Shown here: one piece after another, positions 31,091 through 54,934 of the stretch
Layout of the letters: every line of letters starts with the position of its first letter
Numbering within the stretch: position 1 is the first letter of the stretch
Source: a virus
Virus record (IMG/VR): IMGVR_UViG_3300003323_001142
Coordinates: 1-64,000 of that record
DNA length: 64,000 nucleotides
Reading direction: 5' to 3' (one strand)
Translations under genes and position numbers: made by a program
Notes under the pieces: model-generated
What the model saw: only the letters and a program-made list of their open reading frames with translations
Database searches by the model: none
Told to the model about the DNA's origin: nothing

Positions 31091-31843
31091 ATGCGAACCC
31101 ACGGCATGAGCCTGACACGTACCTATAAGTCGTGGGCTTCCGCGAAAAGCCGATGCTTCAATCCGAACGCTGACGGCTGGAGGTTCTACGGTGGCCGAGG
31201 CATCACCATGTGCGTACGGTGGCGCTCGTCTTTCTCCGCGTTCTACGCGGACATGGGGACTCGGCCCCGGCGGACGAGTATCGATCGAATCAACAATGAC
31301 GGCAGCTACACCTGCGGCAAATGCGTTGAGTGCGTAGCGAAGGGGTGGCTCTCGAATTGTCGATGGGCAACTGACGAGGAGCAGATTGCCAACTCTTCTC
31401 ACCCAAGAAGAGCGCGACCCGCCCGCGCGCCCAGTCTTGAGCGGAGATCGTACCGCAACTCTGTTAACCGCAGAATCCGGCTCGGTCGCTACCGCGCGAT
31501 GTGGGACGAGATCGGCACACTGTACTCGCCGTTCGATGAAGCTCGGATTGAGTACGACATCCGGACGGAGATTGCCAAGCGGCTCGGCTTCGAGCCATTC
31601 GTGGAGATCCCGAAAGATCTCTCCGCCGACAATTGGCAGGACAGGCCCCTCTTCGATGATCCAACGCCCGGGGCAACGCTGGAAAAGATCGGTGCGCGGT
31701 TCCGGTTCACGCGCGAGCGAGCGCGCCAAATCGAAGCGATTGCTCTCGAGAAGATGCGCAAGCGACTGATTTCGATCGAACCATCGCTCCGCGCCCGCCG
31801 TCCAGTCTCTGCCTGCAAGGTCTCGGCGCGGAGGGCCGCCTAA
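31091..31843 (+). CDS. HNH nuclease fused to sigma-70 region 4
   Basis: Residues about 10-105 follow the phage HNH pattern (YGGRGITMCVRW, DMGTRP, SIDRINNDG, CGKCVEC, NCRWAT) and match the nuclease at 5983-6663. A linker (about 110-185) follows. Residues about 192-230 read ATLEKIGARFRFTRERARQI then EAIALEKMRKR, the sigma-70 region 4.2 signature that binds the -35 element. A nuclease-like domain joined to a promoter-binding helix is unusual. It may target nuclease activity to promoters, or be a transcription factor that uses the HNH fold as a second DNA grip. Confidence 0.8.
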   Translation: MRTHGMSLTRTYKSWASAKSRCFNPNADGWRFYGGRGITMCVRWRSSFSAFYADMGTRPRRTSIDRINNDGSYTCGKCVECVAKGWLSNCRWATDEEQIANSSHPRRARPARAPSLERRSYRNSVNRRIRLGRYRAMWDEIGTLYSPFDEARIEYDIRTEIAKRLGFEPFVEIPKDLSADNWQDRPLFDDPTPGATLEKIGARFRFTRERARQIEAIALEKMRKRLISIEPSLRARRPVSACKVSARRAA

Positions 31844-31846
31844 CCC

Positions 31847-32365
31847 ATGCCCCCGCTCCCCACCGCCCACCTGCGCCCACGATTCGGATCCGCCCAGGAC
31901 ACCCAGTCCGATCGCACCCGCATCCTCTCCGCCCTGGCCGCCGGCCACGTGTCCGCGCTCTCGATCTCCCGCGCAACCGGCATCGAGCGCCGGACCGTCT
32001 ACCGCCATCTCCAATCGCTGGAACGCATCGGCCGCGTCGTCTCGCGCCCGAAGGCCACCGCAAGCACCGGCAAGTACCGCCTCTGGGCTATCGCCCCCGT
32101 CGACGCCAGCGACCCCGAGCCCACCGGCCCGCTCCCCATCCCCCGTCGCCTCCTCGCCGTCATCGCGCTCGGTCCCATCACCCGCGACGCGCTCGCGGAT
32201 CAGCTCGGCATCTCGTCCGCGATCGTTTTGCTGCACCTGCTCGCTCTTGAGCGGAGTCGAGAGATCGTCTGCCAACCGACCCCCGAAGGGACCGTCTGGG
32301 CGCTCCGTAGGCCCCGGCCGCTTTGGGAGCAGGCGCTGGAGCAGCGCGGAAAGCGCGTGGCGTAG
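31847..32365 (+). CDS. Tandem winged-helix DNA-binding protein
   Basis: The 172-residue protein has two wHTH units: TRILSALAAGHVSALSISRA...TVYRHLQSLERIGRVV (about 23-65) and a second (LLAVIALGPITRDALADQLGISSAIVLLHLLALER, about 105-145). Likely a transcriptional regulator or replication accessory protein. The Pro-rich linker suggests flexible binding of two sites. Confidence 0.6.
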   Translation: MPPLPTAHLRPRFGSAQDTQSDRTRILSALAAGHVSALSISRATGIERRTVYRHLQSLERIGRVVSRPKATASTGKYRLWAIAPVDASDPEPTGPLPIPRRLLAVIALGPITRDALADQLGISSAIVLLHLLALERSREIVCQPTPEGTVWALRRPRPLWEQALEQRGKRVA

Positions 32366-32575
32366 ATGAACCAGCTCCCCTCCTCTCGCATCCGTCGCGC
32401 GCGGCGCCTCGTTGCGCTCCTCCGCGTCGCCGCCGCCCTCGTTTTCGGCTTCGGCCTCGGCATTCTCTTCGGCGGCAAGGACCACCAGGGCACGGGGATG
32501 CTCGTCGTCGATGTCTCCTTCGCGGTGCTCCTGCTGGCCGAGATTGTCCGCGTTCGCGCGATGGGGAGGAGCTGA
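32366..32575 (+). CDS. Small membrane protein
   Basis: Sixty-nine residues with a basic start and two hydrophobic segments (VALLRVAAALVFGFGLGILF and MLVVDVSFAVLLLAEIV). It starts directly after the previous stop. Role unknown. Confidence 0.5.
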   Translation: MNQLPSSRIRRARRLVALLRVAAALVFGFGLGILFGGKDHQGTGMLVVDVSFAVLLLAEIVRVRAMGRS

Positions 32576-32737
32576 ATGCTTGGCCGTTCGACTCTCCTCA
32601 CTGTTTCCTACACCGGACTCGCAGCTTGTGTTGTCGCCTGGGCGCGCGGCGACACTGTGCTGGCCGGGATCTTCGCCGTCTGCGCCCTGCTCCTCGCGAT
32701 TTCGAGCTCGGCCTTTCCGCGAAAGGAGAAGGCCTGA
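32576..32737 (+). CDS. Small membrane protein
   Basis: ATG at 32576, one base after the previous stop, opens a 53-residue protein (MLGRSTLLTVSYTGLAACVV...IFAVCALLLAISS) with two hydrophobic segments. It is followed immediately by the next gene. Probably an inner-membrane protein. Confidence 0.5.
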   Translation: MLGRSTLLTVSYTGLAACVVAWARGDTVLAGIFAVCALLLAISSSAFPRKEKA

Positions 32738-33013
32738 ATGCAGACCTGCCCCCCTGGCCTCGACGCCGCCCCCGTCGACAACGACGAGCCCCTCTCGCTG
32801 ATGTCGCCCGTCTACGCGCACGTGCTCGGCCGCGAGCTCGGCCACTTCGAGGCGATTCTGGAAGCGTGGGACGGCTCCCGTCGGGTCATCACGTTCCTTC
32901 GCCCCGAGAATCTGATCGAGGCAATGCAAGCGCTCAACGAGGCCCGCATTACCTATTCGATGTACCAGCGCGGCGGCTGGGTCTGGTTCCGTCTCGAGAG
33001 GAGGCCCGCATGA
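32738..33013 (+). CDS. Hypothetical protein
   Basis: Ninety-one residues beginning MQTCPPGLDAAPVDNDEPLS, with strands and helix (RRVITFLRPENLIEAMQALN...YSMYQRGGWVWFRLE). This shape resembles small ferredoxin-like phage modules. Unknown role. Confidence 0.5.
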   Translation: MQTCPPGLDAAPVDNDEPLSLMSPVYAHVLGRELGHFEAILEAWDGSRRVITFLRPENLIEAMQALNEARITYSMYQRGGWVWFRLERRPA

Positions 33014-33025
33014 GCTCCGGAAGGA

Positions 33026-33223
33026 GTGTCCGTGCAGGTCAATCGCTACATCGCCGGCTCGTCGTCCGGCGTTCCCCGCGTCGGGCAGAACTGGCAGGGC
33101 TGGATCGAGGCCCCCGACGGGAGCTGGGTTGCGTTCGTCCGGCACCGCGGCGAGACGCTCGTGTTCCTGCACCGCGACATGCGGACGGGGCGCGTCGTCG
33201 AGGCGGCTCCGATCCGGGCCTAG
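33026..33223 (+). CDS. Small beta-rich protein
   Basis: A GTG start gives 65 residues, mostly strands (VGQNWQGWIEAPDGSWVAFV, LVFLHRDMRTGRVVEAAPI). Preceded by GGAAGG. The stop overlaps the end of the opposing gene. Not recognised. Confidence 0.45.
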   Translation: MSVQVNRYIAGSSSGVPRVGQNWQGWIEAPDGSWVAFVRHRGETLVFLHRDMRTGRVVEAAPIRA

Positions 33224-33408
33224 TGTGCCATCGGGCCGCCGCGCATCTTCACGCGCCAGTCCACGAGCGAGTTGCAATGGGCGCACGGAGGGAACACCTC
33301 GCCCTGCGTCACGATGAACTCGTTGTGGTGCTGGTTGCGCCGGCAGGTCCCCTCGTAGGCGCCCGTTTTCTCGCAGCTCTCCCCGGTCCCCCACACGCCA
33401 TCGGCCAT
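33220..33408 (-). CDS. Minus-strand zinc-ribbon gene inside the rightward operon
   Basis: The start MADGVWGTGESCEKTGAY gives 62 residues with the ribbon C-E-K-T, GTC, FPPCAHC (YEGTCRRNQHHNEFIVTQGE between). The pattern (Y-x-G-x-C-x3-H...G-E-x-F-P-P-C-x2-C) is typical of small phage/bacterial YjzC-like zinc proteins. It runs against its neighbours and so may be expressed separately. Confidence 0.6.
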   Translation of the reverse strand: MADGVWGTGESCEKTGAYEGTCRRNQHHNEFIVTQGEVFPPCAHCNSLVDWRVKMRGGPMAH

Positions 33409-33478
33409 AGCTCGCTCCCTCCTTGGCTGCAATCAGAACACACTGGTCATAACGGGCAACTTTTCGGCGAGGTGGGCC

Positions 33479-33892
33479 ATGCGTAGGGGCGAGGCGTTGG
33501 CCGCTGTGGTCGCAGGCCCCGGGATAGCTCGGGCGCGGGAGCGCGGCACCGCCGCTGGGACTTGGGCCACCGTCGTCCGGGTCGGTGGGGGGCATGAGCA
33601 CGAGGCGGAGGATTCTGGCTGTGGTCGTCTGCATGGGGAGATTGGTGCGGATGGATTGGCGAAGACACAACCACCCTCGCCCCTATCTGCGTCAACTGAA
33701 AGCCCGCGCCGTGCATTGGCGAAACTACGTTCGCTTGTTCAGTCCGGGGAGCTGACATGCGGTCAGCTAGCGCTTCGGTGGGGTTGCTCGCGGCAACGGG
33801 CTTGGCACCTGGTCTTTCGCGATAGCGGGCCCGGCGACGAGCGGCTGGCGGATTTGCCGGAGCGGACGCGGCGACGATTGGAGGCTGCTTGA
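33479..33892 (+). CDS. HTH protein upstream of the RNA ligase
   Basis: The C-terminal half (LRSLVQSGELTCGQLALRWG then CSRQRAWHLV...LPERTRRRLEAA) is a clear HTH. The N-terminal 75 residues are of doubtful coding quality, so the true start may be later, for instance TTG near 33708. A different-frame 53-residue ORF (33594-33755, MSTRRRILAVVV) overlaps it. The stop overlaps the RNA ligase start (TTGA). Confidence 0.5.
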   Translation: MRRGEALAAVVAGPGIARARERGTAAGTWATVVRVGGGHEHEAEDSGCGRLHGEIGADGLAKTQPPSPLSASTESPRRALAKLRSLVQSGELTCGQLALRWGCSRQRAWHLVFRDSGPGDERLADLPERTRRRLEAA

Positions 33893-35043
33893 CTCTCATC
33901 CAACAATTCCTTCGTGAGCCAGGCTGGACCGAGACGAAGCTCGATGCGCTGAAGACGCGATACGGCATCACCCATCGCCGGCATTGCGCGTACCCGAACC
34001 TGGTGCTCCTCAAATACAACCAGATCGAGTCACCTTTCGGCGAACCGATCGTCCAGGAATGCCGCGGGATCATCCTCGACGAGGCCGACCATTGGCGCAT
34101 TGTATCGCGGGCCTTCTCGAAGTTCTTCAACCACGGCGAAGGTCACGCGGCTCCTATCGATTGGTCTACCGCCAAGGTCCAGGAGAAGGTCGACGGGTCG
34201 CTGTGCGTTCTCTATTGGTATCGGAACGAGTGGCACGTGGCGACATCGGGCTCCCCCGATGCGAGCGGACAGGTGCAGGGGTCGGGCATTTCGGACGCGT
34301 CCCTCCGCGGCTCGGTCGACACGTTCGCGAGCTACTTTTGGCGGACGTTCCATGACTGCGGGTTGCGGCTACCATCATCCACATCGCGCGACCGCTGCTT
34401 TTTCTTCGAGCTCACCGGACCGATCAACCGCGTGGTCGTAGTACACGATGCCCCTTCGCTCACCCTTCTTGGCGCGCGTCGCCTGACCGATCAGCAAGAG
34501 ATCGACATCGAACGAGCCGCGGACCTTCTCGGTGGCGCGCCGAAAGTCGTGCGCGAGTATCCGCTCCAGTCGTTCGACGACATTGCACGCTCGTTCGAAT
34601 CGATCTCTCCGCTCTCCCAAGAGGGCTACGTCGTGGTCGATCATCGGTTTCACCGCGTGAAGGTGAAGCATCCCGGATACGTCGCCTTGCACCACATGAA
34701 GGGCGGCCTGTCGCAAAAGGCGTTCGTCGAGATAGCGCGTAGTGGAGAAACGTCAGAGGTTCTTTCGACGTTCCCGGAGTTCGCGCCGACGCTCGAAGAG
34801 GCTATCCGGCGGTTCAACGGACTCGTAGCCAGCGTAGCCGCCGACTATGAGCGGCTTGCTGGCATTCCCGAGCAGAAAGCGTTCGCGCTGGAAGCCGTGA
34901 AGACGCGGTGCTCGGCCGCGCTCTTCATGGTGCGAGCTCGTAAGGCGCCGTCGATCGCGGATTACTTCCGCACGATGCAGATCGATCAGCTGGTGAAGCT
35001 GCTTGGCGTGAAGGATGAGCCGATAGCGACGGAGGCGGCTTGA
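33889..35043 (+). CDS. T4 Rnl1-type RNA ligase
   Basis: The TTG start (TTGA overlap) gives 384 residues. YPNLVLLKYNQIESPF and QECRGIILDEAD lead to RAFSKFFNHGEGH, then QEKVDGSL with the adenylated Lys near residue 100. Downstream are FFFELTGPINRVVV (motif IIIa region), QEGYVVVD (motif IV) and VKVKHPGYVAL (motif V). The order and length match phage T4 RNA ligase 1, which seals tRNAs cut by host anticodon nucleases. No polynucleotide kinase/phosphatase partner is visible in the window. Confidence 0.85.
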   Translation: MTLIQQFLREPGWTETKLDALKTRYGITHRRHCAYPNLVLLKYNQIESPFGEPIVQECRGIILDEADHWRIVSRAFSKFFNHGEGHAAPIDWSTAKVQEKVDGSLCVLYWYRNEWHVATSGSPDASGQVQGSGISDASLRGSVDTFASYFWRTFHDCGLRLPSSTSRDRCFFFELTGPINRVVVVHDAPSLTLLGARRLTDQQEIDIERAADLLGGAPKVVREYPLQSFDDIARSFESISPLSQEGYVVVDHRFHRVKVKHPGYVALHHMKGGLSQKAFVEIARSGETSEVLSTFPEFAPTLEEAIRRFNGLVASVAADYERLAGIPEQKAFALEAVKTRCSAALFMVRARKAPSIADYFRTMQIDQLVKLLGVKDEPIATEAA

Positions 35044-35420
35044 TGGGCATCTACGACCTCCACTTTCCAAGTTGCGCACTCCCCGCCCCCCAGCAGTCTG
35101 CCCCCATCCCCGCGCCCGTGCCATCGGCCCAATCGCCTAGGGTCAACAACCGGCTGACCGCGCGGCAGGCAGAGGTTCTCGACTTCATCTGCGTCCACGC
35201 CGACGAAACGGGCGGCGTGCCGAGCATCCGCGAGACCGGTGAGCGCTTCGCCATCCGCTCGACGAACGGCATCTACACGCACCTGCACTACCTCGCGCGC
35301 AAAGGCTTTCTCGCCATGCCGGAGATCGCGGGCGTCAATCGTGGTCGGTCGCGGTCGTATCGCATTCTCCGGCGCTCGGACGGCGTCGCCGTTCGACTCA
35401 GGCTTGTTCCTATTGACTGA
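35043..35420 (+). CDS. LexA-like DNA-binding domain protein (no peptidase)
   Basis: Residues about 38-95 read LTARQAEVLDFICVHADETG then VPSIRETGERFAIRS and GIYTHLHYLARKGFL, the winged helix of LexA. The protein ends at 125 residues with no Ser-Lys peptidase domain. It likely binds LexA-like operators without SOS cleavage. ATG 35043 overlaps the previous stop as TGATG. Confidence 0.65.
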   Translation: MGIYDLHFPSCALPAPQQSAPIPAPVPSAQSPRVNNRLTARQAEVLDFICVHADETGGVPSIRETGERFAIRSTNGIYTHLHYLARKGFLAMPEIAGVNRGRSRSYRILRRSDGVAVRLRLVPID

Positions 35421-35429
35421 GGAGGTCTC

Positions 35430-35951
35430 ATGTCTGCTCGTAAGAAGCTCGAAGAAACGATCGCGCACGCCAGAACGGCAATCGCGCTCGCAGCACAGGC
35501 CTACGTGGCCGAAGTGGTGCAGCAATCTCTCGGCACCGCCCCCGCAGCCGATCTCGACGAGCCCCGTCGGAATCGGCCCGCCCGCACTCGCAAGCCGGCT
35601 CGTGCCAAGAAGCCAGCGAAGGTTGCAGCGCCGAAGCCCGCCAAGAGGACCGTGACGAAACCCGCGCCGGTCAAGCGGAGCCGGACCAGCCGCGAGGTGA
35701 TGCTCGTGCGGGAGCAATCGGCTTCGGAATACGCCGCCGGTGGGCAGTTCTTCGCGGTGGGCGACTTTGCGAAGTACGCGGACATCCCCGTCAAGGACGC
35801 GTCGCTCACGCTGCGGAATATGGTTTCGGCCGGCAAGCTCGTCATCCAGGGCGAGAAAAGGAATGCGCGTTATCGCAAGGCCACCAAATCCAACGGCGTG
35901 GCCGAGCGGGCCGTGGAGCTGGATGAGGATTCGGCGGGGGTGGAGGCGTGA
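35430..35951 (+). CDS. Basic linker protein with winged-helix C-terminus
   Basis: The 173-residue protein begins with a helix (KLEETIAHARTAIALAAQAY), continues with an Ala/Pro/Lys-rich, histone H1-like tail (about 50-85, repeating KPAK), and ends with a compact domain (FFAVGDFAKYADIPVKDASL then TLRNMVSAGKLVIQGE) like a wHTH. This resembles nucleoid proteins or xenogeneic silencers. SD AGGAGG precedes the ATG. Confidence 0.5.
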   Translation: MSARKKLEETIAHARTAIALAAQAYVAEVVQQSLGTAPAADLDEPRRNRPARTRKPARAKKPAKVAAPKPAKRTVTKPAPVKRSRTSREVMLVREQSASEYAAGGQFFAVGDFAKYADIPVKDASLTLRNMVSAGKLVIQGEKRNARYRKATKSNGVAERAVELDEDSAGVEA

Positions 35952-41037: not shown

Positions 41038-41237
41038 GCGCGGGAACATGCAAATGCGGCTGGGTCGCGCCCGAGATCGAAGTCTCCGTCATTGCTGGGC
41101 ACGATCCGGCGCTGCCGCCGCCCGATCACATCATCGTGCGCTTCGTGATCACGTGTCCGAAGTGCAACGCGAAATTGCCGGGGATGATCGAAAGCCGAGG
41201 CCCACGGCCGGTCAAGTCAACGGACGCACCATCATGA
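41034..41237 (+). CDS. Small zinc-ribbon-like protein
   Basis: Sixty-seven residues with C-K-C-G near residue 6 and C-P-K-C near residue 41. A beta segment (HIIVRFVITCP) precedes the second pair. Overlaps both neighbours. Confidence 0.55.
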   Translation: MSAGTCKCGWVAPEIEVSVIAGHDPALPPPDHIIVRFVITCPKCNAKLPGMIESRGPRPVKSTDAPS

Positions 41238-41866
41238 ACGATTTCAAATTCAACCCACCGCACATCGTCTGTCGGCGCATCTGCGAAGCCATCGGGTCGA
41301 GCGGTCGCCCAGTGCGAGAGATTCAGGTTTCGCGAAAGGTCTGGCCGGTTCTTCGTGCTTGTCCGGAGGCCGAGGCCGAATCGGCCGAAAACAAGCCTGA
41401 TTCGCTCGCGGCGGCATCGGTGCCCCCCCCGCCGGTACCCGCAGAAGAGGGGCCCATCCCCAGCCTCAATCCGACGCCGGACCTGACCGACCGCCAGGCC
41501 GAGATCCTCGCCTTCATCGGCGATCAGATCGCGAGCGGCATGCCGCCGACCACGCGGGAGATTTGCGAGCAGTTCCGATTCGCGTCCACCAACTCGGTAG
41601 CGCTGCATCTCGCGACCCTTGAGAGCAAGGGCTACATCGTCCGGGCGCTGGGAAGCGCGCGCGGGATTCGCATCCTAAAGGGCCATCCGGCGGCCGCGCT
41701 GGCGTTCCACAGTCGCATTGGCGAGGGCAACGCAAAGCGGACCACCGAGTATCTGAGACTCATGTTGGCCGAGGTCTGCGAGGCGCTCGAGCTCGTTGAG
41801 GCGATCGGCTGGGATCGGGCACGCGAGTACGCGGCTCAAGCGCGGCGCGCGGGAGGTGCGTCGTGA
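41234..41866 (+). CDS. LexA-like DNA-binding domain protein (second copy)
   Basis: The start MNDFKFNPPHIVCRRIC gives 210 residues. About 80-140 is LTDRQAEILAFIGDQIASGM then PPTTREICEQFRFASTNSVA and LHLATLESKGYIVR, a LexA winged helix. No peptidase domain follows, only a helical tail. It is a paralogue in form of the 35043 protein and may compete at SOS-type operators. Confidence 0.65.
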   Translation: MNDFKFNPPHIVCRRICEAIGSSGRPVREIQVSRKVWPVLRACPEAEAESAENKPDSLAAASVPPPPVPAEEGPIPSLNPTPDLTDRQAEILAFIGDQIASGMPPTTREICEQFRFASTNSVALHLATLESKGYIVRALGSARGIRILKGHPAAALAFHSRIGEGNAKRTTEYLRLMLAEVCEALELVEAIGWDRAREYAAQARRAGGAS

Positions 41867-42429
41867 GCGACGACAAGATCGTCAAGATGCCGACGAAACC
41901 GCAGCCGATAAGGCCCGGCGGGACCGCGTCTCTGGAGCTGATCGTCAATCGGCACGGCAAGTATTGCGACCACCGCCCGGTAGAACTCGACACCGAACGA
42001 AGGGGTGTGACGTGCAAAGACTGCGGCGCGTCGCTCGACCCGTTCGATACTTTGCTCCGTTATGCGCGAGAACACGAACGTGTAGCTCGCGACCTGAAGG
42101 ACACGTCCACGGACGCGAAGGGAGCTCACGCGCGGCTGGAACTGCTCGAGCGGCTGGAGCGCAACGCCAAGGGCCGCTTGCGTCGACTCGGTGTACGCCA
42201 TCTCCCGGAGCATCGACTGGATTGGCTGGTCGCGCGTGCTCAAGAGCGCATGGGAAAGGTCGGGATCGATCGACGCTATGTCGAATACACGCTTGAGGAA
42301 CTGAAGCCCGTTGATCGCTTGCGGGCCGCTCTTGCAATGCTCGACGGTGGCGGGGATGAGGGCACTGCCATGGCGCTCGCGGAGCAGGCCCTGATCGAAC
42401 TGCGGACCATAACGGAGGAGCGCAAATGA
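41863..42429 (+). CDS. Zinc-binding helical protein
   Basis: GTG start (GTGA overlap), 188 residues. C-D-H and C-K-D-C around residues 36-55 form a metal site, then long helices (LLRYAREHERVARDLKDTST). Unknown role. It overlaps the next gene by ATGA. Confidence 0.5.
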   Translation: MSDDKIVKMPTKPQPIRPGGTASLELIVNRHGKYCDHRPVELDTERRGVTCKDCGASLDPFDTLLRYAREHERVARDLKDTSTDAKGAHARLELLERLERNAKGRLRRLGVRHLPEHRLDWLVARAQERMGKVGIDRRYVEYTLEELKPVDRLRAALAMLDGGGDEGTAMALAEQALIELRTITEERK

Positions 42430-43325
42430 CCACGGCGCGCCAACTGACCCTGGACGAGCTGCTCGTCGAGCGCTCGGAGCCCGCGCAACGGCCATGGACT
42501 GCTACCGAGATCGCCTTCCTGCGTGACCACTATCTGGTCGATGGGGCCACACGGATTGCGCGCGATCTCGACCGGACCTTCTCGTCGGTTGCCAATCGAG
42601 CTCGCAGGCTCGGCTTGCTGCGCAAGCGACGGTGGACGCGAGGCGACGATCTGAAACTCGAACTGCTTTGGGATACAACGACGCTCCGGGGCCTATCCAA
42701 AAAGCTCGGTCGCACCCAGGCCACCATCTATGCGCGCGCACAGAAGCTCGGACTCGGCCTCGGATGCCCAAATGGGTTCGAATACCTGACAGCTGCCGCT
42801 GAGCGAACGGGGTTCGACACCGGGCAGTTGCGCGTCGTACTGCGAGCCGCTGGCGTGAAGGTGCGTGTGGCGATGGCCCGTCCGGGACCACGGCAAAGCA
42901 AACGAAAGTATCACTATGTGCCTCCGGAAGCTGTCGACGAAGCGGTGGCGCTCTGGAACCGGTCGGAAACGATCGAATCTGCGGCGCGTCGGCACGGAGT
43001 CTGTGGAGACAGTATCCGCCGCTGGCTGGACGAAGCGCGCGCTGCGGGGGCCTCGATTCCCGCCGAGCCTACGCAGCGGAAGGCGCGCTGGCGCTTGCCT
43101 TCGGATCTGATCGACCGCGTTGTTGCCGAGCACGTCCAGCTGATGAGCCTTCGCCAGCACGAGGCGAGGGTCAGAATCTCACGCGACACACTCGCGAGGT
43201 GGCTGGCGACAGCTGGTATCAAGCCGCGGTACCCGAAGCGCTGGAAGCTACCGGCGTCCGTTGTTGACACTGTGGTGGCCAACGAGTTGGCACGGACTGG
43301 ATGCAGAGCGAGGAGGCCGGCATGA
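42426..43325 (+). CDS. Multi-HTH DNA-binding protein (GcrA/Myb-like repeats)
   Basis: The 299-residue protein contains two Myb/GcrA-type repeats: WTATEIAFLRDHYLVDGATR...VANRARRLGLL and WTRGDDLKLELLWDTTTLRG...IYARAQKLGL. Further HTH units follow (ESAARRHGVCGDSIRRWLDE; RISRDTLARWLATAGI). Four DNA-binding units in one chain suggest an architectural or transcription factor. It overlaps the methyltransferase gene by ATGA. Confidence 0.6.
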   Translation: MTTARQLTLDELLVERSEPAQRPWTATEIAFLRDHYLVDGATRIARDLDRTFSSVANRARRLGLLRKRRWTRGDDLKLELLWDTTTLRGLSKKLGRTQATIYARAQKLGLGLGCPNGFEYLTAAAERTGFDTGQLRVVLRAAGVKVRVAMARPGPRQSKRKYHYVPPEAVDEAVALWNRSETIESAARRHGVCGDSIRRWLDEARAAGASIPAEPTQRKARWRLPSDLIDRVVAEHVQLMSLRQHEARVRISRDTLARWLATAGIKPRYPKRWKLPASVVDTVVANELARTGCRARRPA

Positions 43326-45852: not shown

Positions 45853-46527
45853 GTGACTATTGAAACAACAGACAAGACACGGGCATTGATCGACCGGTGG
45901 CTCCAGAATCAGTCCGACATGCTCCATCATCGGCTTTCTGTTTGTGGTTCACCGATTGAGCAGCTACTGATGATGGCAATGGTGACGATCCGGCCACCGT
46001 TTGATCGACCCTGGCCAGAGTTCGTACCAGATTGGTTTCGAGGCGAATCGAACCAAACATTCTACGGGTGCGCATTCGTCAGCGTCTCTGATTGCGTCCC
46101 CGCTTACTGGGGCGATCGCATAGTAGGCGAAGGGATTTCGGGGCATATGCTCGTCGGTCTTGACGGGCACGAGTTCCAAGATACCGAATACCGAATTGTT
46201 GTTGCTCAGCCGCAGCTCACTCTCTCTGGCAGGCGGATCCGGCCAGACTTTGTCGTGCTCGATCGTGGCGTAAAAGTCGTTGTTGAGTGTGACGGCCACG
46301 AGTTCCACGAACGAACAAAGGAGCAGGCCGAGAATGATAAGAGTAGAGACAGGCTGCTGTCTTCCCGTGGATGGAAGGTGCTCAGGTTTACGGGATCGGA
46401 GATATATCGCGATCCGGTCGGATGCGTGAACGAGATCGAGGGAATAATCGAGGAGGCTCTATTGCCTGAGCGATTGCGTATTGCATCAAGAAATCGAGGC
46501 GTGGTCCCCGAAAAGGGGAGACAGTGA
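45853..46527 (+). CDS. DUF559/Vsr-like PD-(D/E)XK endonuclease
   Basis: GTG start, 224 residues. GSPIEQLLMMAM starts the nuclease region. RRIRPDFVVLDRGVKVVVEC then DGHEFHERTKEQ, a D...ExD-type site, and DKSRDRLLSSRGWKVLRFTG...RDPVGCV follow, matching the Vsr/DUF559 endonuclease group. It is less GC-rich than its neighbours and is preceded by a 55-base gap with TTGGTG- and TTGGAC-like words, so it may be a separately acquired cargo gene (defence or recombination). Confidence 0.65.
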   Translation: MTIETTDKTRALIDRWLQNQSDMLHHRLSVCGSPIEQLLMMAMVTIRPPFDRPWPEFVPDWFRGESNQTFYGCAFVSVSDCVPAYWGDRIVGEGISGHMLVGLDGHEFQDTEYRIVVAQPQLTLSGRRIRPDFVVLDRGVKVVVECDGHEFHERTKEQAENDKSRDRLLSSRGWKVLRFTGSEIYRDPVGCVNEIEGIIEEALLPERLRIASRNRGVVPEKGRQ

Positions 46528-47543
46528 TCGAGTCGCGAGTGAAGATGCCTTCGGTATTCGAAGACGCTGCGGTGCATCACCCCAAGGCCTCTAAAGCGGG
46601 CAACGAAGCTGCTGCGTTCTGGCATTGGGCCATTATGTGGTCGAACGCCAACGGCACGAACGGCTATTTGGACGAGGCAATACTATTCCGCATCCCCCCG
46701 GTTCCGATCCTTCCGAAGAAGGCGAAGCAACTCGCCGAGAGGTGTGTCGACGCGTCGATAAAGCCAGGGGGAGCGGGGCTCTTCGAGCGGGCCGATGGCG
46801 GTGGCTACTGGATTCACGACTTCGACAAGTATTATGCACCGCCCCGCGAGCCGACAGCAGAGGAGCTGGAGCTCGAGGCGAAACGCCGCGCTGACAAGGC
46901 CGCCGCTGGTCGCCTCGGCGGCATGAAGTCTGGTGAGGTGCGGCGCGGTGGACGCGGGAAGCAGGGTGCTTCCAATTCGAAGCATAGTGCTTCTGAAAAT
47001 GAAGCAGACTGCTTCCCGTACGAAGCAGAATCGAAGCAGCCTGCTTCTGCGAACGAAGCAGAGTGCTTGCCCGTTGCTTCCCCGGGTGCTTCCGGGTGCT
47101 TCGATGCGTCCGAAGGGGGGATACAGGGGGGTTCTCTGGGTTTATTTCAGGAAGAGCCAGGAGAAAGAGAGCAATTACGAGGAGAAGGGCGAGAGAAGAT
47201 CTCTGGATCAAAGCAAGACCTACCGGTGACCGCGAGGCGCGCGCGCAAACGCCGGGCCGCGTTGCCCGACGGCTGGCGACCTACCGCCGGAAGCTTCGCC
47301 GCTGCGGCGAGGGACGCTGGCCTCACCGAGGCGCAGGCGCTCGGTCAGCTCGCCCAGTTCCGCGACTACCACCTGCGAGAGGGAAGCTTGATGGCGGACT
47401 GGGACGCCGCCTTCCGGACCTGGATTCGCAACACGCGAAGGTTCGGTCGTGGGGCGATCAATCCGCCCGCTCCCACCGGTGGCGGCTGGACCATCCAGCC
47501 CGACGAACCGCTCGACGAGGAGGACGCAGATGCTCATGGCTGA
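46524..47543 (+). CDS. O-like replication initiator with embedded iterons
   Basis: The 339-residue protein has an N-terminal winged-helix-like region (AAAFWHWAIMWSNANGTNGY...PPVPILPKKAKQLAERCVDA), a hydrophilic centre rich in Lys-Ala-Ser-Glu, and a C-terminal helical domain (TAGSFAAAARDAGLTEAQAL...MADWDAAFRTWIRN) like many phage initiators. The DNA coding the centre (46958-47102) carries repeated GAAGCA/TGCTTC elements, as in lambda O where the origin lies inside the gene. The next gene is a DnaC-like loader. Confidence 0.7.
   Translation: MIESRVKMPSVFEDAAVHHPKASKAGNEAAAFWHWAIMWSNANGTNGYLDEAILFRIPPVPILPKKAKQLAERCVDASIKPGGAGLFERADGGGYWIHDFDKYYAPPREPTAEELELEAKRRADKAAAGRLGGMKSGEVRRGGRGKQGASNSKHSASENEADCFPYEAESKQPASANEAECLPVASPGASGCFDASEGGIQGGSLGLFQEEPGEREQLRGEGREKISGSKQDLPVTARRARKRRAALPDGWRPTAGSFAAAARDAGLTEAQALGQLAQFRDYHLREGSLMADWDAAFRTWIRNTRRFGRGAINPPAPTGGGWTIQPDEPLDEEDADAHG
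46958..47102. repeat. ori: Iteron array: candidate replication origin
   Basis: Five copies of the palindromic unit GAAGCA-N3-TGCTT(C) start at 46958, 46979, 47001, 47033 and 47055 (the last has G for the final C). There is an extra GAAGCA at 47022 and extra TGCTTC at 47075, 47087 and 47097. Most spacings are 21-22 bp, two helical turns. The coding sequence is constrained to do this, producing the Lys-Gln/Glu-Ala/Ser-rich centre of the protein. Confidence 0.65.
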
Positions 47544-48306
47544 CCCGCTCGTGACCCGCAATCACCGGCGCGCCAAAGGGGCGCTTGAGCGCCTCGGTCA
47601 GCCCGGCCCCGGCGCGCCGCGAGTGTTCCTCTGCGCCGATTGCCGCGGGCCCGTCGGAGGACCCTACGCGCAATGCCGCGCATGCTTGGAGGCCGAGACC
47701 CGCGTGCATCGTCGCGAGCTCGTGCGCGGAGCACTGGAGAGCATCCCGTCGGTGTTCCGCGACCTGTGGCGCGGCGACGAAGCGGCGCTCACGGCCGGGC
47801 CCAGCCCTCGGGTGAAAGAGCCGAAGGCGGTTGCGGCCGCGCAGCGGGCCCTGGCGAAGCCGATCTCCGCCGTGGTGCTACGTGGGGGCCGCGGCCGCGG
47901 AAAGACCAGCTTGGCGGCCTTCCTACTGGGGCGTGCCATCATGCGCACCGTCGACCCGTCGGTTCGATTCGCGGAATGTCGCAGTGCGGCTGGCATGCTG
48001 TTCGTGACCGCGGAGCAGATTGCCACTGCGCGGTCGGAACATCCGCTCGGCGCCGGGGAGCCCCCCTTATTCGTTCGGGCTCGCTACGCGGGCCTGCTGG
48101 TACTCGACGAGCTCAGCGACAAGCTACCGAGTGCCCGGCTCGCCGACGTGGAGCGGCTCATTCACGAACGCCACTCGGCAGACTGCAAAACGATCGTTAC
48201 GACGCCGCTTACCGCAGCGCAGATCATTGCGCACTACGGCGAGACGGCCGGGCGTCGGCTCGGGGATGAGCGGACCGTGCAGGTCAACCTTGGAGGAGTC
48301 CCTTGA
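47530..48306 (+). CDS. DnaC/IstB-like helicase loader (P-like)
   Basis: The start MLMADPLVTRNH gives 258 residues. An N-terminal CADC...CRAC ribbon (about 37-60) precedes an AAA+ domain with Walker A GGRGRGKTS (about 118) and Walker B LLVLDELSD (about 190), then TTPLTAAQI. This is the DnaC/IstB loader arrangement. It follows the O-like initiator by overlap. It should recruit the host replicative helicase to the iteron origin. Confidence 0.75.
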   Translation: MLMADPLVTRNHRRAKGALERLGQPGPGAPRVFLCADCRGPVGGPYAQCRACLEAETRVHRRELVRGALESIPSVFRDLWRGDEAALTAGPSPRVKEPKAVAAAQRALAKPISAVVLRGGRGRGKTSLAAFLLGRAIMRTVDPSVRFAECRSAAGMLFVTAEQIATARSEHPLGAGEPPLFVRARYAGLLVLDELSDKLPSARLADVERLIHERHSADCKTIVTTPLTAAQIIAHYGETAGRRLGDERTVQVNLGGVP

Positions 48307-48647
48307 AACAGGAATCAAATTGCGATCGGATTCTGCGAAGACTTCGGGCTCGCGGTTTTGGCGAAGCGCTTACGGGAATTGCCACGGCATCCTTCGTTAC
48401 GGCCGAAGAGATCGTCGGCAATTGTCGCGAAGCGCATATCGTCGAGGCACGCCACAAGGTCTGGTTCGTGATGCGGCGAGAGGGGCTGAGCTATCCAGCC
48501 ATCGCTCGGCTAGTCGAGCGAGACCACACGACGATCATGTATGCATTGAAGAAAATAGAAGCACAGCACAGAGAGCTTCCGCCAGCAGGACCGCGCGAGC
48601 TGCGGCGCGCGAAACGGCTGCCGCCACCGAAAGCGAGTGCGGCGTGA
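48303..48647 (+). CDS. Free-standing DnaA domain IV-like protein
   Basis: TTG start in a TTGA overlap, 114 residues. Residues about 32-90 match the DnaA DNA-binding domain: VTAEEIVGNCREAHIVEARH then VWFVMRREGLSYPAIARLVE and RDHTTIMYALKKIE, the DHTT(I/V) signature. DnaA domains I-III are absent. It may bind DnaA boxes to direct or block initiation. Confidence 0.75.
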   Translation: MKQESNCDRILRRLRARGFGEALTGIATASFVTAEEIVGNCREAHIVEARHKVWFVMRREGLSYPAIARLVERDHTTIMYALKKIEAQHRELPPAGPRELRRAKRLPPPKASAA

Positions 48648-49792: not shown

Positions 49793-50061
49793 CCCAACTC
49801 GACATCGACCGCATCCGCCTCTACGGCCCCCGCAACTTCGAAGAGGCCGAGGCGGCGCAGGCCGCGTTCTGCTCGATGGTGCAGCGGCTGCTCACCGCAA
49901 CCAGCCCAGACGAGGATGCGATTGACGTGACCGATCGCGAGCGCGAGGCGATGGGCTTCACCTTCCGCGGCTTCCCGTGGGTCACTCGACTCGACGGCGA
50001 ATGGAACTACGAGGTCGAAGAGGCAGCAGGGCGATGGCGAATTGGCTCGCGTACGAAGTGA
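49789..50061 (+). CDS. Hypothetical protein
   Basis: GTG start overlapping the previous stop (GTGA), 90 residues, with helices (IRLYGPRNFEEAEAAQAAFC) and a beta-rich end (FRGFPWVTRLDGEWNYEVEE). Overlaps the truncated phosphoesterase frame by 28 bases. Confidence 0.5.
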   Translation: MTQLDIDRIRLYGPRNFEEAEAAQAAFCSMVQRLLTATSPDEDAIDVTDREREAMGFTFRGFPWVTRLDGEWNYEVEEAAGRWRIGSRTK

Positions 50062-50183
50062 TCACGAAGCCGAAGGCGTACGTGCACGGGCACATCCACG
50101 ACAGCTTCGGCGTGCGGAGCGAGATGGGGATCCTGGTATCGAATGCGGCGACGACGATGAATCTGGTCGAGGTGTCCAAGTGA
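50034..50183 (+). pseudogene. C-terminal remnant of a metallophosphoesterase
   Basis: A 49-residue frame (start MANWLAYEVITKPKAYVHGH) carries GHIHDSFGV and NAATTMNLVEVS, the final motif block (GHxH, then Asn) of calcineurin-like phosphoesterases. The DxH, GD-N and GNHE blocks are absent upstream, where an unrelated protein is encoded. The piece is probably a deletion product, possibly still translated. Confidence 0.55.
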
Positions 50184-50461
50184 GCGCTCGGGCCGCCCTC
50201 CTCCCCCCTCCCGAAGTGCACTTCTTCCTGGTCGGCATCCCTCTCGGCCAAGCCTCGAACCGGATGGATCGATACGTCCGCGCCGGCGCCAGCCCCGACG
50301 AGCCCGACCCGTGGGTCCGCGTACCCGGTCAGCCGGGCCGGAGCCGGGCTGTGAGGCGTTTTCAGACCCGGGGGGAGGGGGAGGCATGGGCGGAGGCGAG
50401 ACGGAGGCTCAAAGGGACGCGGTGTCGGGTGGTGGCTTGTCGTGGGCCGGAGGTCACATGA
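50180..50461 (+). CDS. Hypothetical protein
   Basis: GTG start (GTGA overlap), 93 residues: MSARAALLPPPEVHFFLVGI, a Pro-rich centre and a basic helical end (GEAWAEARRRLKGTRCR). Not recognised. It ends in ATGA with the TPM-like gene. Confidence 0.45.
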   Translation: MSARAALLPPPEVHFFLVGIPLGQASNRMDRYVRAGASPDEPDPWVRVPGQPGRSRAVRRFQTRGEGEAWAEARRRLKGTRCRVVACRGPEVT

Positions 50462-51552
50462 TCACTTTCATCGGACTGCTGTCTGTGCCCGTGCTGGTTG
50501 CCGTCGGAGCCTTCGTCTTGCTCGATGGCATCAGCTGGAAGGAATTCCTCCTGCAGCTCGGAGCAGCCTGCATCGTCGCTGGCACGTGCTCGGCCATCGC
50601 GTCCTGCGCGAACACTTCAGATGTTGAGATCTGGAACGGTCGCGTGACGAGCAAGTCGAGTGAGCACGTAAGCTGCTCGCATTCGTACCAATGCAACTGC
50701 CGTGAGAGGTGCTCGGGGTCAGGCAAAGATCGGTCTTGCTCGACCGTGTGCGATACGTGCTACGAGCATGCTTACGATGTCGATTGGACGGTCCGGCTCA
50801 GTACCGGTGACAGCATCGACATCGACCGGGTGGACAGCCAGGGCATCCTGGAGCCGCCACGGCATGCGGCTGCGAAGGTAGGTGAGCCCGCGGCCGCAGC
50901 GCATCACTATGCGAACTACGTCAAAGCGTCACCCGACTCGCTGTTTCGGCATCAGGGCATCGCCGAGCGCTATGCGGCCAAGATCCCGCCGTACCCCGGA
51001 AAGGTGTTCGACTATTACCGGGTGAACCGAGTGGTGACGGTCGGGTACGAGCTGTCCGATAAGGCAGCGTGGGAACGTGACCTGTCGGAGCTGAACGCTG
51101 ACCTTGGCAGCAAGAAGCAGGTCAACGTTGCTCTGGTCGTCACGGCTGGGTTGCCGACGGAATTCTTCTACGGCCTTGAGCAGGCGTGGGTCGGCGGCAA
51201 GAAGAACGACCTGATTGTCGTCATCGGCAGCAAGGACGCAGGGACCATCGACTGGGTCGACGTGATGGCCTGGGCCACGGATCCGATTGTGAAGGTCAGG
51301 CTGCGCGATGACCTACTTTCGGTGGGAGTGCTGGAACGGGAGAAGGTGGTGGCCGCTATCCGCGACGACGTGGCTCGCTATTACCAGCGAAAGCCAATGG
51401 CGGATTTTAAGTATCTGACGGCCAGCATCACGCCGACGACGACGGAATGGATCGTGTCGATGTTGATTGAACTCGTGATCGCGGTGGGACTTGTTTGGGT
51501 ATGCAAGACGAACGACGTGTTCGGAGATGAAGGAGGACGACGATGTCGATGA
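50458..51552 (+). CDS. Membrane protein partner of LemA (TPM-like)
   Basis: The 364-residue protein starts with two hydrophobic segments (FIGLLSVPVLVAVGAFVLLD and FLLQLGAACIVAGTCSAIAS). A Cys-rich extracellular/periplasmic region follows (about 65-100, CSHSYQCNCRERCSG...CDTC), then an alpha/beta domain (VNVALVVTAGLPTEFFYGLE...NDLIVVIGSKD). One C-terminal membrane segment (WIVSMLIELVIAVGLVWV) ends it. The layout with a LemA gene immediately downstream matches TPM-domain/LemA pairs. A role at the cell envelope is likely but undefined. Confidence 0.55.
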   Translation: MITFIGLLSVPVLVAVGAFVLLDGISWKEFLLQLGAACIVAGTCSAIASCANTSDVEIWNGRVTSKSSEHVSCSHSYQCNCRERCSGSGKDRSCSTVCDTCYEHAYDVDWTVRLSTGDSIDIDRVDSQGILEPPRHAAAKVGEPAAAAHHYANYVKASPDSLFRHQGIAERYAAKIPPYPGKVFDYYRVNRVVTVGYELSDKAAWERDLSELNADLGSKKQVNVALVVTAGLPTEFFYGLEQAWVGGKKNDLIVVIGSKDAGTIDWVDVMAWATDPIVKVRLRDDLLSVGVLEREKVVAAIRDDVARYYQRKPMADFKYLTASITPTTTEWIVSMLIELVIAVGLVWVCKTNDVFGDEGGRRCR

Positions 51553-52100
51553 CCCTGAAGGTGATCCTGGGAGTTGCTGCGGCGCTGATGCTTTTCGGCG
51601 TGCTTGGCGTGGGCTGCGTGATCGGGTTCAACAACGACTGCGTGCAGCAGGAGGCTGGGCTGACGGCGCAGTATTCCCAGAACCAGAACAACTATTCGAG
51701 CTACTTCAATAAGCTGAAGGAGACGGCGCAGGTGCCGGGCATGTACGCGGCAGACCTCGAGAAGCTCTACACCGGAGCCATCCAGGGTCGATACGGCGAA
51801 GGTGGATCCAAGGCGGTCGTTCAATTCATCCAGGAACACAACCCGTCGCTCGATGCGAAGATGTACACGCAGATCCAGCAGGTCATCGAGTCCGGCCGCG
51901 ACGCGTTCGAGGCCGACCAAAAGACCCTACTCGACAAGAAGCGCGTCTACGAAGTTAAGCTCCACTCGTTCCCAGGCTCGATGCTCGCCAGCATGATGGG
52001 ATACCCCAGGGTCGACCTGGCCAAGATCGACATCGTGACCAACGACGAGACACAGAAGGCGTTCGATACGAAGAAGGCTGGGCCGATAACGGTTCGGTGA
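51543..52100 (+). CDS. lemA: LemA-family protein
   Basis: The 185-residue protein has an N-terminal membrane segment (LKVILGVAAALMLFGVLGVG), then a long helical domain with EAGLTAQYSQNQNNYSSYFN, DLEKLYTGAIQGRYGEGG and SFPGSMLASMMGYPRVDLAK. The signature is of LemA-like proteins found in phages and bacteria, a membrane-anchored helical bundle. The function is unknown; it pairs with the TPM-like protein just upstream. Confidence 0.7.
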   Translation: MSMTLKVILGVAAALMLFGVLGVGCVIGFNNDCVQQEAGLTAQYSQNQNNYSSYFNKLKETAQVPGMYAADLEKLYTGAIQGRYGEGGSKAVVQFIQEHNPSLDAKMYTQIQQVIESGRDAFEADQKTLLDKKRVYEVKLHSFPGSMLASMMGYPRVDLAKIDIVTNDETQKAFDTKKAGPITVR

Positions 52101-52117
52101 GCGCGAAAGGACCGGCG

Positions 52118-52354
52118 ATGAGCGATAGGATCCGTGGCTTCGTGGTCACGCTGACGGAAGACATCACGCAAGAGCAGGCAGACCGAATCGAGAGCGCGTT
52201 GCGGCTGCTTCCGAAAGTCGCAAGCGTCGCGAAGGCCGAGTCGGACTACGCATCGCAGATGGCGGAAGAACGTGTTCGCCAAGACATCTGGTTGCAATTG
52301 CTTCGGCTGGCATTCCCGGTGGTCCATGAAAAGAAGGCGGCGGACGAGCGATGA
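52118..52354 (+). CDS. Small hypothetical protein
   Basis: The start MSDRIRGFVVTLTEDITQEQ follows SD AAAGGA; an in-frame GTG at 52097 overlapping the LemA stop is an alternative. Seventy-eight residues with ferredoxin-like strand-helix (ADRIESALRLLPKVASVAKA) arrangement. Common in this phage context, role unknown. Confidence 0.55.
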   Translation: MSDRIRGFVVTLTEDITQEQADRIESALRLLPKVASVAKAESDYASQMAEERVRQDIWLQLLRLAFPVVHEKKAADER

Positions 52355-52713
52355 CGATCTGGTCCACTCTCGCAAGCCTGCTCGGGGTCCGTGACGACCA
52401 GGTGGACGACGCACTCGCATCCGAGCAGTGCGCACGTCACACACTGAGCCGAAGGGGGCTCTTGCTCGGCGCGGCGTCGGTGGCGCCTATGCTGGCGACG
52501 AGTCGAACGTGGTCCTTGCCGGCGATGTCTCGCCGCCCGCGGGCTCGGCTCCGCACATACACGGATGCGACCATCTATCTCAGCGGGACCCGCATGTTCG
52601 AAAGGCGGGTGTCGTACGAGCCAAGCGTTTCTCTGGATGGCATTACCTTCGTGAAGCCGACGATGACTTGGCAGCCCATCGAACTAACCCTTGGCGCGGT
52701 AGGGCTTAAATGA
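52351..52713 (+). CDS. Tat-signal-like protein
   Basis: The 120-residue protein has LSRRGLLLGAASVAPMLA near residues 32-50, a twin-arginine (S-R-R-x-L-L) motif followed by a hydrophobic core. The remaining part is short and beta-rich (TYTDATIYLSGTRMFERRVS). A Tat-exported small protein is possible, though the motif sits about 30 residues from the N-terminus. No enzyme motif. Confidence 0.5.
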   Translation: MTIWSTLASLLGVRDDQVDDALASEQCARHTLSRRGLLLGAASVAPMLATSRTWSLPAMSRRPRARLRTYTDATIYLSGTRMFERRVSYEPSVSLDGITFVKPTMTWQPIELTLGAVGLK

Positions 52714-53009
52714 CGTGGTTCCTCAGCCTCAGTGACGCGGCGCTGGCCCTCGCGATCTGGCTGCTCTGGCTATCGAATAAGCGGCGGCAGGACGCAGCCA
52801 ACGAGGCGCTCAAGGCGGCAGTCCGCGGAGTCCTGCGGCTGCAAAGAAAGGATCGTCGGGAACTTCGCAGGCGCCTGGACGCAGCGGTCGGTCTTGGGCT
52901 TCACGCGCATCGGCGAATCGACGAGCTGACGGAGGATGAGGACGAGGAGCCGGAGGTCGTGTGCGAGTGTGTCGCGTGCGCGAAGTGGAAGGTGGAGCGG
53001 TGGAACTGA
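52710..53009 (+). CDS. Membrane-anchored coiled-coil protein
   Basis: Ninety-nine residues: short membrane segment (FLSLSDAALALAIWLLWL), charged helix (LQRKDRRELRRRLDAAVGLG) and a Cys-containing tail (CECVACAKW) after an acidic run. Overlaps the Tat-like gene by ATGA. Unknown. Confidence 0.45.
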   Translation: MTWFLSLSDAALALAIWLLWLSNKRRQDAANEALKAAVRGVLRLQRKDRRELRRRLDAAVGLGLHAHRRIDELTEDEDEEPEVVCECVACAKWKVERWN

Positions 53010-53047
53010 CGATGGTCTCCGGCACACAGGAGAGCAACGGGCGATAG

Positions 53048-54934
53048 ATGGGCGCAGCCGTGGCGATCGAACCTCTTCCCGAACAGCCGACCGAGGTGCC
53101 GGAGCGGAGACTCTCGCCCGCGGAAGAGGCGAGGCTTGTTCGGGAGAACCAAGGCCTCGTGCACTTCTTCGCGCGACGCCAGAAAACGACCAGCTACGAC
53201 GACGCTGTCCAGGCTGGGATGATCGGTCTGCTGATAGCGATCAGGAAATTTGAGCCAGAGCGCGGCCTCAAGCTGTCGACCTATGCCCAATATTGGATCC
53301 GCCAAGCCATCGATCGACAGGGATTCGCCGAAGACCCGAAGGGAGATACGCCGAATCTGGCGCGCACCCGGTATAAGATTCGCGAAGCGACCAAACAGCT
53401 AAAGGCGGAAGGCGTTGAGCGGCCGACCATTGCGCAGGTAGGCGAACGAGCAAAGATATTCCCGGCGACTGTGGCGGCAGCGCTCGAATGGCGCAGCGCG
53501 CACGTCAGTTCCTTGGATGCGCCCATCGGGGAGGACGACGGCGCGGCGCTTGTGGACATGGTTCCCGACGATGGCGCCGGGCCAGAGTCGGTCGTAGCCG
53601 AATCCGAGGCCATGGCTATGTTGCGCAAGCAGCTGGATTGTTTCTCGCGTATGTTGCCGCCACGAGAGGCGATTGTTCTGAAAGAGCGGCTCCTAGCTGA
53701 GCAGCCCTCAGGACAAAGAGAGGTGGGCGAGCGCATCAAGCGAACCAAGCAGCGCGTTCAGCAGCTTGAGACAACTGTACTCGATAAGCTTCAGAAGTAC
53801 ATGCGAAGAGTGCACAGAGAGGATTTCGACGTGCGTGCGGCATTGGCTGCTCCGGTTACGAAACTTAGGCCACAGTCGTTCGGCCAGCCAATAGAGGCAT
53901 TATTGGATAGACCCGAGCCGGCGCCTGTGCGCTCGGTTCCGGTCGCAGCAAATGCGGTCAGTGTGCCTGCGGCGAAAGCGCGGGGGTATAAGGTCCCAAC
54001 CTGCGCGAAGTGTGGCGCACCGCTGTCCGTCCGATCGTTACAGCAAGGATATGACCGCTGTGGCGTATGTCGTCAACGCGGTCCCGAGAAGCACCAGGAT
54101 CGGGCCATTCCGGATAATCCTGTGAGTGGCTCGGGTCGGGCTCGGGCGCCAGGTACGGGGAACGTGTGGCACAAGAAGGGGCGCTGGTATGCGAAGGAGC
54201 CGGAATCGATCCAGGATGGCAGGCGGTTCGCGCGATACATCGGCTCGTTTGCGACGGCGGAAGAGGCGCACGCAGCGTGCGATAAGTGGGTCGAAGAGAA
54301 CGGTGGCCCGAAAGTGGAGCGGGTTCTTCCGACGTGCAACGAACCCGGATGTTCAACCTTTCTGAACCAGCGAAGCCTTGAGGCTGGCGATGGGCTGTGC
54401 GGAGTACACCGACGGGATCGAAAGAAGATGGCCGAGCGGGCGAAGGGTGAAGTGGTTGCGGGCGGGCCATCGGCAATCACGGCGTTGGCTGTGGTCGATC
54501 GTGGTCCGAGCGGAACCGAAGAGCGAACGGAGCCGGCGGTAGATACGATTGCTAGCGTCCGCGCGTTTCTCGCAAAGCGCGATGAGCTAAGGGGTAAACT
54601 CGAGAGCGAGTTACAGGCGGCCAAGGCTCGTGTGCGCGAGATCGAGGACCTGCTGGCCGAGTTTGGCGGATCGTCTGCGCGTCCGATTGTGAGGGCCGAG
54701 CGGACCACGGCTCCGTCGGCGCGAACTGAACGCAGGCAGCTTATCAAGGAGTTCGTAATCAACGCGCTGGGCGATAACCGTGGTCCGATGAAGGGGGCCG
54801 AGGTTGTGCACATCGTTCAAAGAATCGACAGCTCGATCCACCACACGTCGGTCTACCAAGCTCTGTATGCGCTGCACCGAGAGCGGAGAATCTGTGCGGA
54901 TGACGGGCAGAATCGATACTGGCTGCGGGCATGA
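53048..54934 (+). CDS. Sigma-70 factor with zinc-ribbon, AP2-like and wHTH extensions
   Basis: Residues about 33-95 are sigma region 2 (SYDDAVQAGMIGLLIAIRKF...KLSTYAQYWIRQAI, which opens the -10). About 105-165 is region 3-like and about 195-255 region 4 (EVGERIKRTKQRVQQLETTV). Added to this core are a C4 zinc site (CAKC...CGVC, about 318-341), an AP2-like DNA-binding domain (GNVWHKKGRWYAKEP...ARYIGSFATAEEAHAACDKW, about 371-419), a second CNEPGC...CGVH site (about 431-455), a coiled coil (500-545) and a terminal wHTH (about 555-628). Probably the phage's middle/late sigma factor. The multi-domain tail may add sequence-specific activation. Confidence 0.85.
   Translation: MGAAVAIEPLPEQPTEVPERRLSPAEEARLVRENQGLVHFFARRQKTTSYDDAVQAGMIGLLIAIRKFEPERGLKLSTYAQYWIRQAIDRQGFAEDPKGDTPNLARTRYKIREATKQLKAEGVERPTIAQVGERAKIFPATVAAALEWRSAHVSSLDAPIGEDDGAALVDMVPDDGAGPESVVAESEAMAMLRKQLDCFSRMLPPREAIVLKERLLAEQPSGQREVGERIKRTKQRVQQLETTVLDKLQKYMRRVHREDFDVRAALAAPVTKLRPQSFGQPIEALLDRPEPAPVRSVPVAANAVSVPAAKARGYKVPTCAKCGAPLSVRSLQQGYDRCGVCRQRGPEKHQDRAIPDNPVSGSGRARAPGTGNVWHKKGRWYAKEPESIQDGRRFARYIGSFATAEEAHAACDKWVEENGGPKVERVLPTCNEPGCSTFLNQRSLEAGDGLCGVHRRDRKKMAERAKGEVVAGGPSAITALAVVDRGPSGTEERTEPAVDTIASVRAFLAKRDELRGKLESELQAAKARVREIEDLLAEFGGSSARPIVRAERTTAPSARTERRQLIKEFVINALGDNRGPMKGAEVVHIVQRIDSSIHHTSVYQALYALHRERRICADDGQNRYWLRA

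Follow-up and report, generated by a model that had tools for sequence, protein, structure and literature searches.

Two genes in the IMG/VR virus record IMGVR_UViG_3300003323_001142, whose first 64 kb of 101,031 bp constitute the stretch of DNA analysed here (the window), each combine parts of a sigma-70 factor with a module of the homing-endonuclease world. Gene A encodes an atypical HNH-like domain fused to the helix-turn-helix (HTH) of sigma region 4.2, and gene B encodes a sigma-70 factor with a C-terminal DNA-binding extension. Both chimeras had been noticed in a preliminary description of the sequence (at 31091-31843 and 53048-54934), and both are real. Judged by their domains, they look like separate acquisitions and not like a matched pair, while a common pool of modules behind them is supported. 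The two genes are composed as follows:

31091..31843 (+): gene A, 250 amino acids, atypical HNH-like domain fused to sigma region 4.2 HTH (Pfam and PHROG)
31091..31402 (+): A residues 1-104, GGRG-type HNH-like domain (phrog_3377, E=1e-27; AF2)
31670..31762 (+): A residues 194-224, sigma-70 region 4.2 HTH (Pfam Sigma70_r4)
53048..54934 (+): gene B, 628 amino acids, sigma-70 factor with C-terminal DNA-binding extension (Pfam)
53129..53827 (+): B residues 28-260, sigma regions 2, 3 and 4 (Pfam; r2 45.9, r3 35.7 and r4 24.3 bits)
53993..54076 (+): B residues 316-343, first zinc-ribbon-like repeat, CxxC...CxxC (sequence; repeat alignment)
54167..54307 (+): B residues 374-420, AP2-like domain (PF00847 and phrog_99, both weak)
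54326..54415 (+): B residues 427-456, second zinc-ribbon-like repeat (aligned locally to repeat one)
54731..54931 (+): B residues 562-628, tentative winged-helix-like C-terminal end (by eye; PadR at a non-significant E=0.1)

The sigma part of gene A matches Sigma70_r4 with 29.4 bits against a cut-off of 24.1 (2.0e-8 in a record-wide search), and A and B are the only genes with an r4 match in the whole record. The match covers positions 20-50 of the 50-position profile, i.e., its second half, corresponding to region 4.2, while regions 2, 3 and 4.1 are absent from A (Pfam; no r2 or r3 match). A was, thus, rejected as a sigma factor, since regions 2 and 3 and the core-binding region 4.1 are missing. 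Its recognition motif, TRERARQ, differs from the RpoD motif TRERIRQ at one position of the alignment; the residues of this motif that read the -35 element in sigma-4/-35 structures are its first R, its E and its Q. Because these RpoD recognition residues are retained, A probably keeps an affinity for the housekeeping -35 sequence; strong binding to the RNA polymerase flap would not be expected, as region 4.1 is lacking. Matches to the C-terminal part of A are limited to sigma factors, and in 398 scanned Pseudomonadota genomes they lie mostly in frames of about 290-390 and 600-700 amino acids, as in ordinary sigma factors. The N-terminal part hits other genes in these genomes, and none of the matches listed contains both halves of A in one frame. 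Short-frame r4 matches as such are common in phages, where 8 of 50 records exceeded the Pfam cut-off, all of them with short frames.

The N-terminal domain of A falls into PHROG families annotated as “HNH endonuclease”, and a scan with an alignment as query recovered at least 80 relatives of it from IMG/VR, the family being larger than that. In the resulting alignment of 82 rows, which includes A and a second copy from the same phage, R21, G34, G37, C41, W44, F51, R66, Y73, N89 and W92 are invariant. Arg66 is present in 82 of 82 rows, and histidine occurs at no core position in more than a quarter of the rows; an N-terminal histidine (residue 4) is conserved in 67 of 71. With the family alignment, AF2 modelled residues 11-100 at block means of 94-98, with a core of two strands (62-66 and 90-94) followed by a helix (95-101). 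We read this strand-strand-helix order of the model as that expected of an HNH fold, with Arg66 lying near the usual place of the histidine. Pfam HNH was not found in A, of which residues 1-105 are devoid of any Pfam match, and HNH_3 matched nothing in the record, with E values of up to 10 admitted; both hallmarks of a canonical HNH endonuclease (HNH_3), the profile match and the conserved core histidine, are missing. A Foldseek search of the domain against solved structures returned nothing; predicted viral structures do match, some of which are named HNH or AP2. The fusion had been described as one of HNH and sigma-4, and this holds for the PHROG families and the Sigma70_r4 match, but neither for the Pfam HNH domain or a conserved core histidine, nor for a sigma part reaching beyond region 4.2.

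In hhalign, the A family aligned at a probability of 94% with gp59 of ICP1, an IPA-HNH gene, compared with 0.1% for the control gp80, an HNH_3 gene, while direct BLASTP of A, or of the AP2 block of B, against gp59 was not significant. By sequence and profile homology, A can be assigned to a GGRG or IPA-HNH-like homing class. The IPA-HNH genes of ICP1 (gp59, gp115-116 and gp209) are homing genes combining HNH with a C-terminal AP2 domain, and likewise their HNH domain was not detected by a Pfam profile (PMC10448857). A shares with them an atypical HNH-like domain without HNH_3 match and a C-terminal DNA-binding module; however, A has sigma region 4.2 in place of their AP2 partner, the GGRG motif of the A family is absent from gp59, and A has a cysteine-containing insert. 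Members of the domain family of A, with 48% identity over residues 4-98, lie inside a methylase gene of Pacc40 (the insertion in gp60) and, free-standing, beside a methylase gene in Tiff81 (gp75), with the HNH label being called less certain (PMC11855218); in contrast to A, a sigma part was neither reported nor matched in either.

Fusions to sigma parts are sporadic in this family. A Pfam scan of the 82 full-length members yielded AP2 in 2, Sigma70_r4 in 2 and no hit in most; NUMOD1, an I-HmuI-like NUMOD domain, HNH_3, CapR and several HTH types occur as single cases. One of the r4 cases is A itself and the other is taken to be a member (L061) that has an r4 match with the motif SRERVRQI, its r4-like HTH being located at the N-terminus. 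The 12-residue cysteine insert of A, uncommon in the family, was found by DNA pattern in 26 more stretches, two of which (L100 and L112) appear AP2-like at the end by eye and none of which ends in region 4.2. The second copy in the record shares this insert:

5983..6702 (-): second member of the A HNH-like family, with CapR zinc ribbon, unfused to sigma (phrog_3377, 6.1e-40)

Its CapR match (E=1.7e-4) stays just under the cut-off. In a tree of 108 domains, calculated from 108 columns and with many forks unresolved, A and this copy do not group as sisters, and L061 branches at a distance from either; a recent duplication of A and the copy, which are 50% identical, was rejected. Since the L061 fusion is N-terminal and stands in a distant clade, r4-type fusions in the family look rare and independent.

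Two further observations concern the GGRG domain itself. Three viral relatives (L099:359-1573, L108:2088-3236 and L111:335-1444, all on the minus strand) contain three tandem GGRG domains and an HTH-like end, the motif being changed in the last repeat. Another protein (L036:2524-3363) has an HNH_3 match at residues 49-80, outside its separate GGRG domain, and this presence of HNH_3 beside GGRG suggests that, at least in some proteins, the GGRG domain is something other than simply the nuclease.

Gene B, by its domain content, is a near-complete sigma-70 factor. Sigma70_r2, r3 and r4 follow each other in order, all above the Pfam cut-off, the RpoD C-terminal profile (RpoD_Cterm) matches with 103 bits over positions 4-235 of 238, and the phage sigma-70 family phrog_351 matches at E=2e-40. 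On domain content, only B has the parts needed to start transcription. Its region 4.2 motif aligns with that of RpoD as TKQRVQQ, a change that would weaken reading of the housekeeping -35 element, an affinity which B, as far as these residues indicate, probably lacks. In the C-terminal tail, the mutual alignment of the two zinc-ribbon-like repeats beats all of 1000 shuffles; the repeats flank the AP2-like stretch, and a stretch that looks like a coiled coil by eye lies between this block and the winged-helix-like end. While the sigma regions 2-4 of what had been called an AP2-bearing sigma factor are clear, the AP2 match remains below the Pfam cut-off (PF00847, 21.7 bits versus 33.3, E=2.5e-4; phrog_99, E=3.7e-4). 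A six-frame search of the record with an AP2 model found nothing, and a single-sequence structure model of the AP2 block (mean pLDDT 47) was unusable. Regions 2, 3 and 4 are shared with the phage sigma-70 factors of phrog_351, whereas the zinc-ribbon/AP2/winged-helix tail is unmatched there: across 50,697 phage and 72,556 plasmid records, none of the matches to B listed extends past residue 285. Searches with the tail by itself gave no match in phages, IMG/VR or GTDB contigs (short patterns), nor in the 398 Pseudomonadota genomes, the latter search being weak for want of a positive control.

Both genes belong to a run of rightward genes, possibly an operon, beginning at 30773, reaching as far as the record goes and interrupted by a small minus-strand open reading frame (33220-33408), which contains cysteines and has no Pfam match. 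Its landmarks are:

30773..31087 (+): Cro-like HTH protein, 104 amino acids, first gene of the rightward run (HTH_3, 23.6 bits; cut-off 23)
62163..63590 (+): terminase large subunit, with which the recognised structural genes begin (phrog_5909, E=8e-24)

Gene A starts 3 bp past the Cro-like gene, with its GGAGG Shine-Dalgarno sequence located within the 3' end of cro, and ends 3 bp ahead of the next gene (31847). Gene B lies about 7.2 kb upstream of the terminase. The two chimeras had been thought to bracket the rightward operon; A does stand directly behind cro, but B does not mark an end, as rightward genes go on for another 46 kb into the structural genes. According to a simple gene caller and PHROG matches, terminase (62163), portal, major head protein (capsid) and contractile tail sheath are encoded in the rightward part of the record and an integrase in the left arm. 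The phage is a myovirus and, because of the integrase, probably temperate. The GC content is 62-66% throughout.

Several neighbours in the run merit mention on their own account. A T4 Rnl1-type RNA ligase is encoded in the early region (33889-35043). Two genes (35043-35420 and 41234-41866) have the LexA DNA-binding domain as their clear Pfam match, a protease domain not being among the matches listed, and the product of 42426-43325 shows several HTH matches along its length. At 46524-48647, a DnaT-like protein, a DnaC-like loader and a stand-alone DnaA C-terminal (domain IV) protein follow in a row, likely a replication-initiation set.

Compared with named phages, terminase, portal and head protein reach identities of only about 24-31%. 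In the terminase alignment the phage's own protein was an outlier, and this alignment was not used for scanning. The phage represents an isolated lineage, and all tests of distribution are limited by this. Neither architecture recurs in the searched phages, plasmids, IMG/VR or about 400 Pseudomonadota genomes, and A and B are, on present sequence comparison, one-off patchwork genes within these collections.

A shared origin of the two chimeras, as had been proposed, finds no support. The alignment of A and B is confined to 28 residues of region 4.2 (32% identity); A has region 4.2 only and B regions 2-4, and the HNH-like and AP2 modules are different domains. Separate origins are also indicated by the r4-like fusion of L061 being far from A in the tree. 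What the two genes do have in common is the pool from which their modules come, since the class to which A is assigned is known to partner with AP2 and HTH modules.

The explanation that we favour, and to which we would give an even chance, takes A as a homing-type gene docked by the HTH of region 4.2 and B as a middle or late sigma factor with additional DNA-binding domains, the two having been acquired separately from a common pool of phage modules. A would be a homing-endonuclease-type gene of an atypical HNH class directly behind cro, in which the usual N-terminal zinc ribbon is absent and the region 4.2 HTH occupies the usual place of the C-terminal DNA-binding modules. As its retained RpoD recognition residues imply, this HTH would probably dock on a promoter -35-like sequence, thereby guiding cleavage to the vicinity of promoters or, with a dead nuclease, conferring a regulator role. 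It is more likely that A is a homing-type passenger, possibly a domesticated one. B, for which a role as middle or late sigma factor is plausible from content and position, would be a product of the middle part of the rightward run, encoded 7 kb ahead of the packaging and structural genes, and probably redirects the host RNA polymerase to middle and late phage promoters, with the zinc-ribbon/AP2/winged-helix tail adding further DNA contacts. The analysis shows what domains A and B contain, to which families they belong and that the searched collections hold no matching architecture; the DNA targets, timing, nuclease activity and late-transcription function of A and B are what we infer here.

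Several results weigh against this explanation. The region 4.2 match of A spans only 31 residues and could be convergent, and AF2 modelled the C-terminus of A as a single long helix, with no alignment behind that part. No promoter motif common to the upstream regions of the rightward genes exceeded shuffles, and target sites and a late-promoter motif were likewise not found; consensus promoters and terminators were not above chance. Relatives of the phage were not found in IMG/VR by short-pattern scans with terminase and sheath. Codon adaptation is low in A (0.58) and B (0.53), as in the 5983-6702 copy (0.51) and cro (0.52), relative to the confident genes (0.67, standard deviation 0.05), weak evidence of foreign origin that also fits weak expression, with a reference set favouring typical genes; the AP2 stretch of B reaches 0.67.

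Among the alternatives, an unlikely but credible one is that A is a domesticated transcription regulator, similar to WhiA, which has lost cleavage and binds -35-like sites through the region 4.2 HTH, so that the cro-A pair runs an early switch. The tight fit between cro and 31847, with a start behind a Shine-Dalgarno sequence inside cro, would suit such a regulator, as would the core without conserved histidine, and there are precedents in WhiA (PMC3781837) and in CapR, the latter derived from DNA-binding domains of homing genes (PMC10448857). WhiA resembles A in uniting a degenerate homing-endonuclease domain and an HTH in one transcription factor, but is of the LAGLIDADG type and cellular; hence, it is an analogy and no relative (PMC3781837). 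The missing histidine is no sign of domestication in A, because it is a property of the whole family, whose members behave as mobile; moreover, homing genes often reside in or near essential operons (PMC10448857), and no relative of the phage was found that would show A to be conserved. Region 4 HTHs outside a full sigma factor are also known from minimal sigma factors of phages with a single HTH (PMC7824862) and from small phage proteins that consist of r4 only, which differ from A in having no HNH-like fusion, A for its part being without region 4.1.

It is rather improbable that B carries its own activator, its AP2-like domain and zinc ribbons reading an upstream element and not the -35, such that late promoters need no separate activator, together with an A that is a homing protein guided to promoters by region 4.2.

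We also regard it as doubtful that B reprograms host transcription, e.g., in lysogeny or stress, and not the late phage genes, in the manner of sigma factors of Bacillota phages acting on dormancy. Dormancy-altering phage sigma factors are documented (PMC9429907), and the integrase of this probably temperate phage would be in keeping with such a role; yet neither the integrase nor the repressor adjoins B, which is situated in the rightward run ahead of the packaging and structural genes. Highly improbable is a single linked event in which modules of mobile elements were recruited into an early-middle-late cascade and both chimeras came to act together, for which their location within one rightward run and the presence of both modules in the toolkit of one homing-gene class (PMC10448857) speak, but against which stand the short A-B alignment, the unlike sigma content and recognition helices, the sporadic r4 fusions in the A family and the absence from A of parts of a sigma factor.

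If the favoured explanation of a homing-type A and a middle or late sigma factor B is true, B would have DNA-binding domains of the homing type built into a sigma factor, representing a new way of setting promoter choice, and A would indicate that sigma region 4.2 is usable as the targeting module of a homing-type gene; alternatively, A may be a homing-type gene turned regulator and, as such, the counterpart of WhiA in a phage. The HNH-like family of A, abundant in phages and labelled HNH although its core is without the usual histidine, is of interest of its own.

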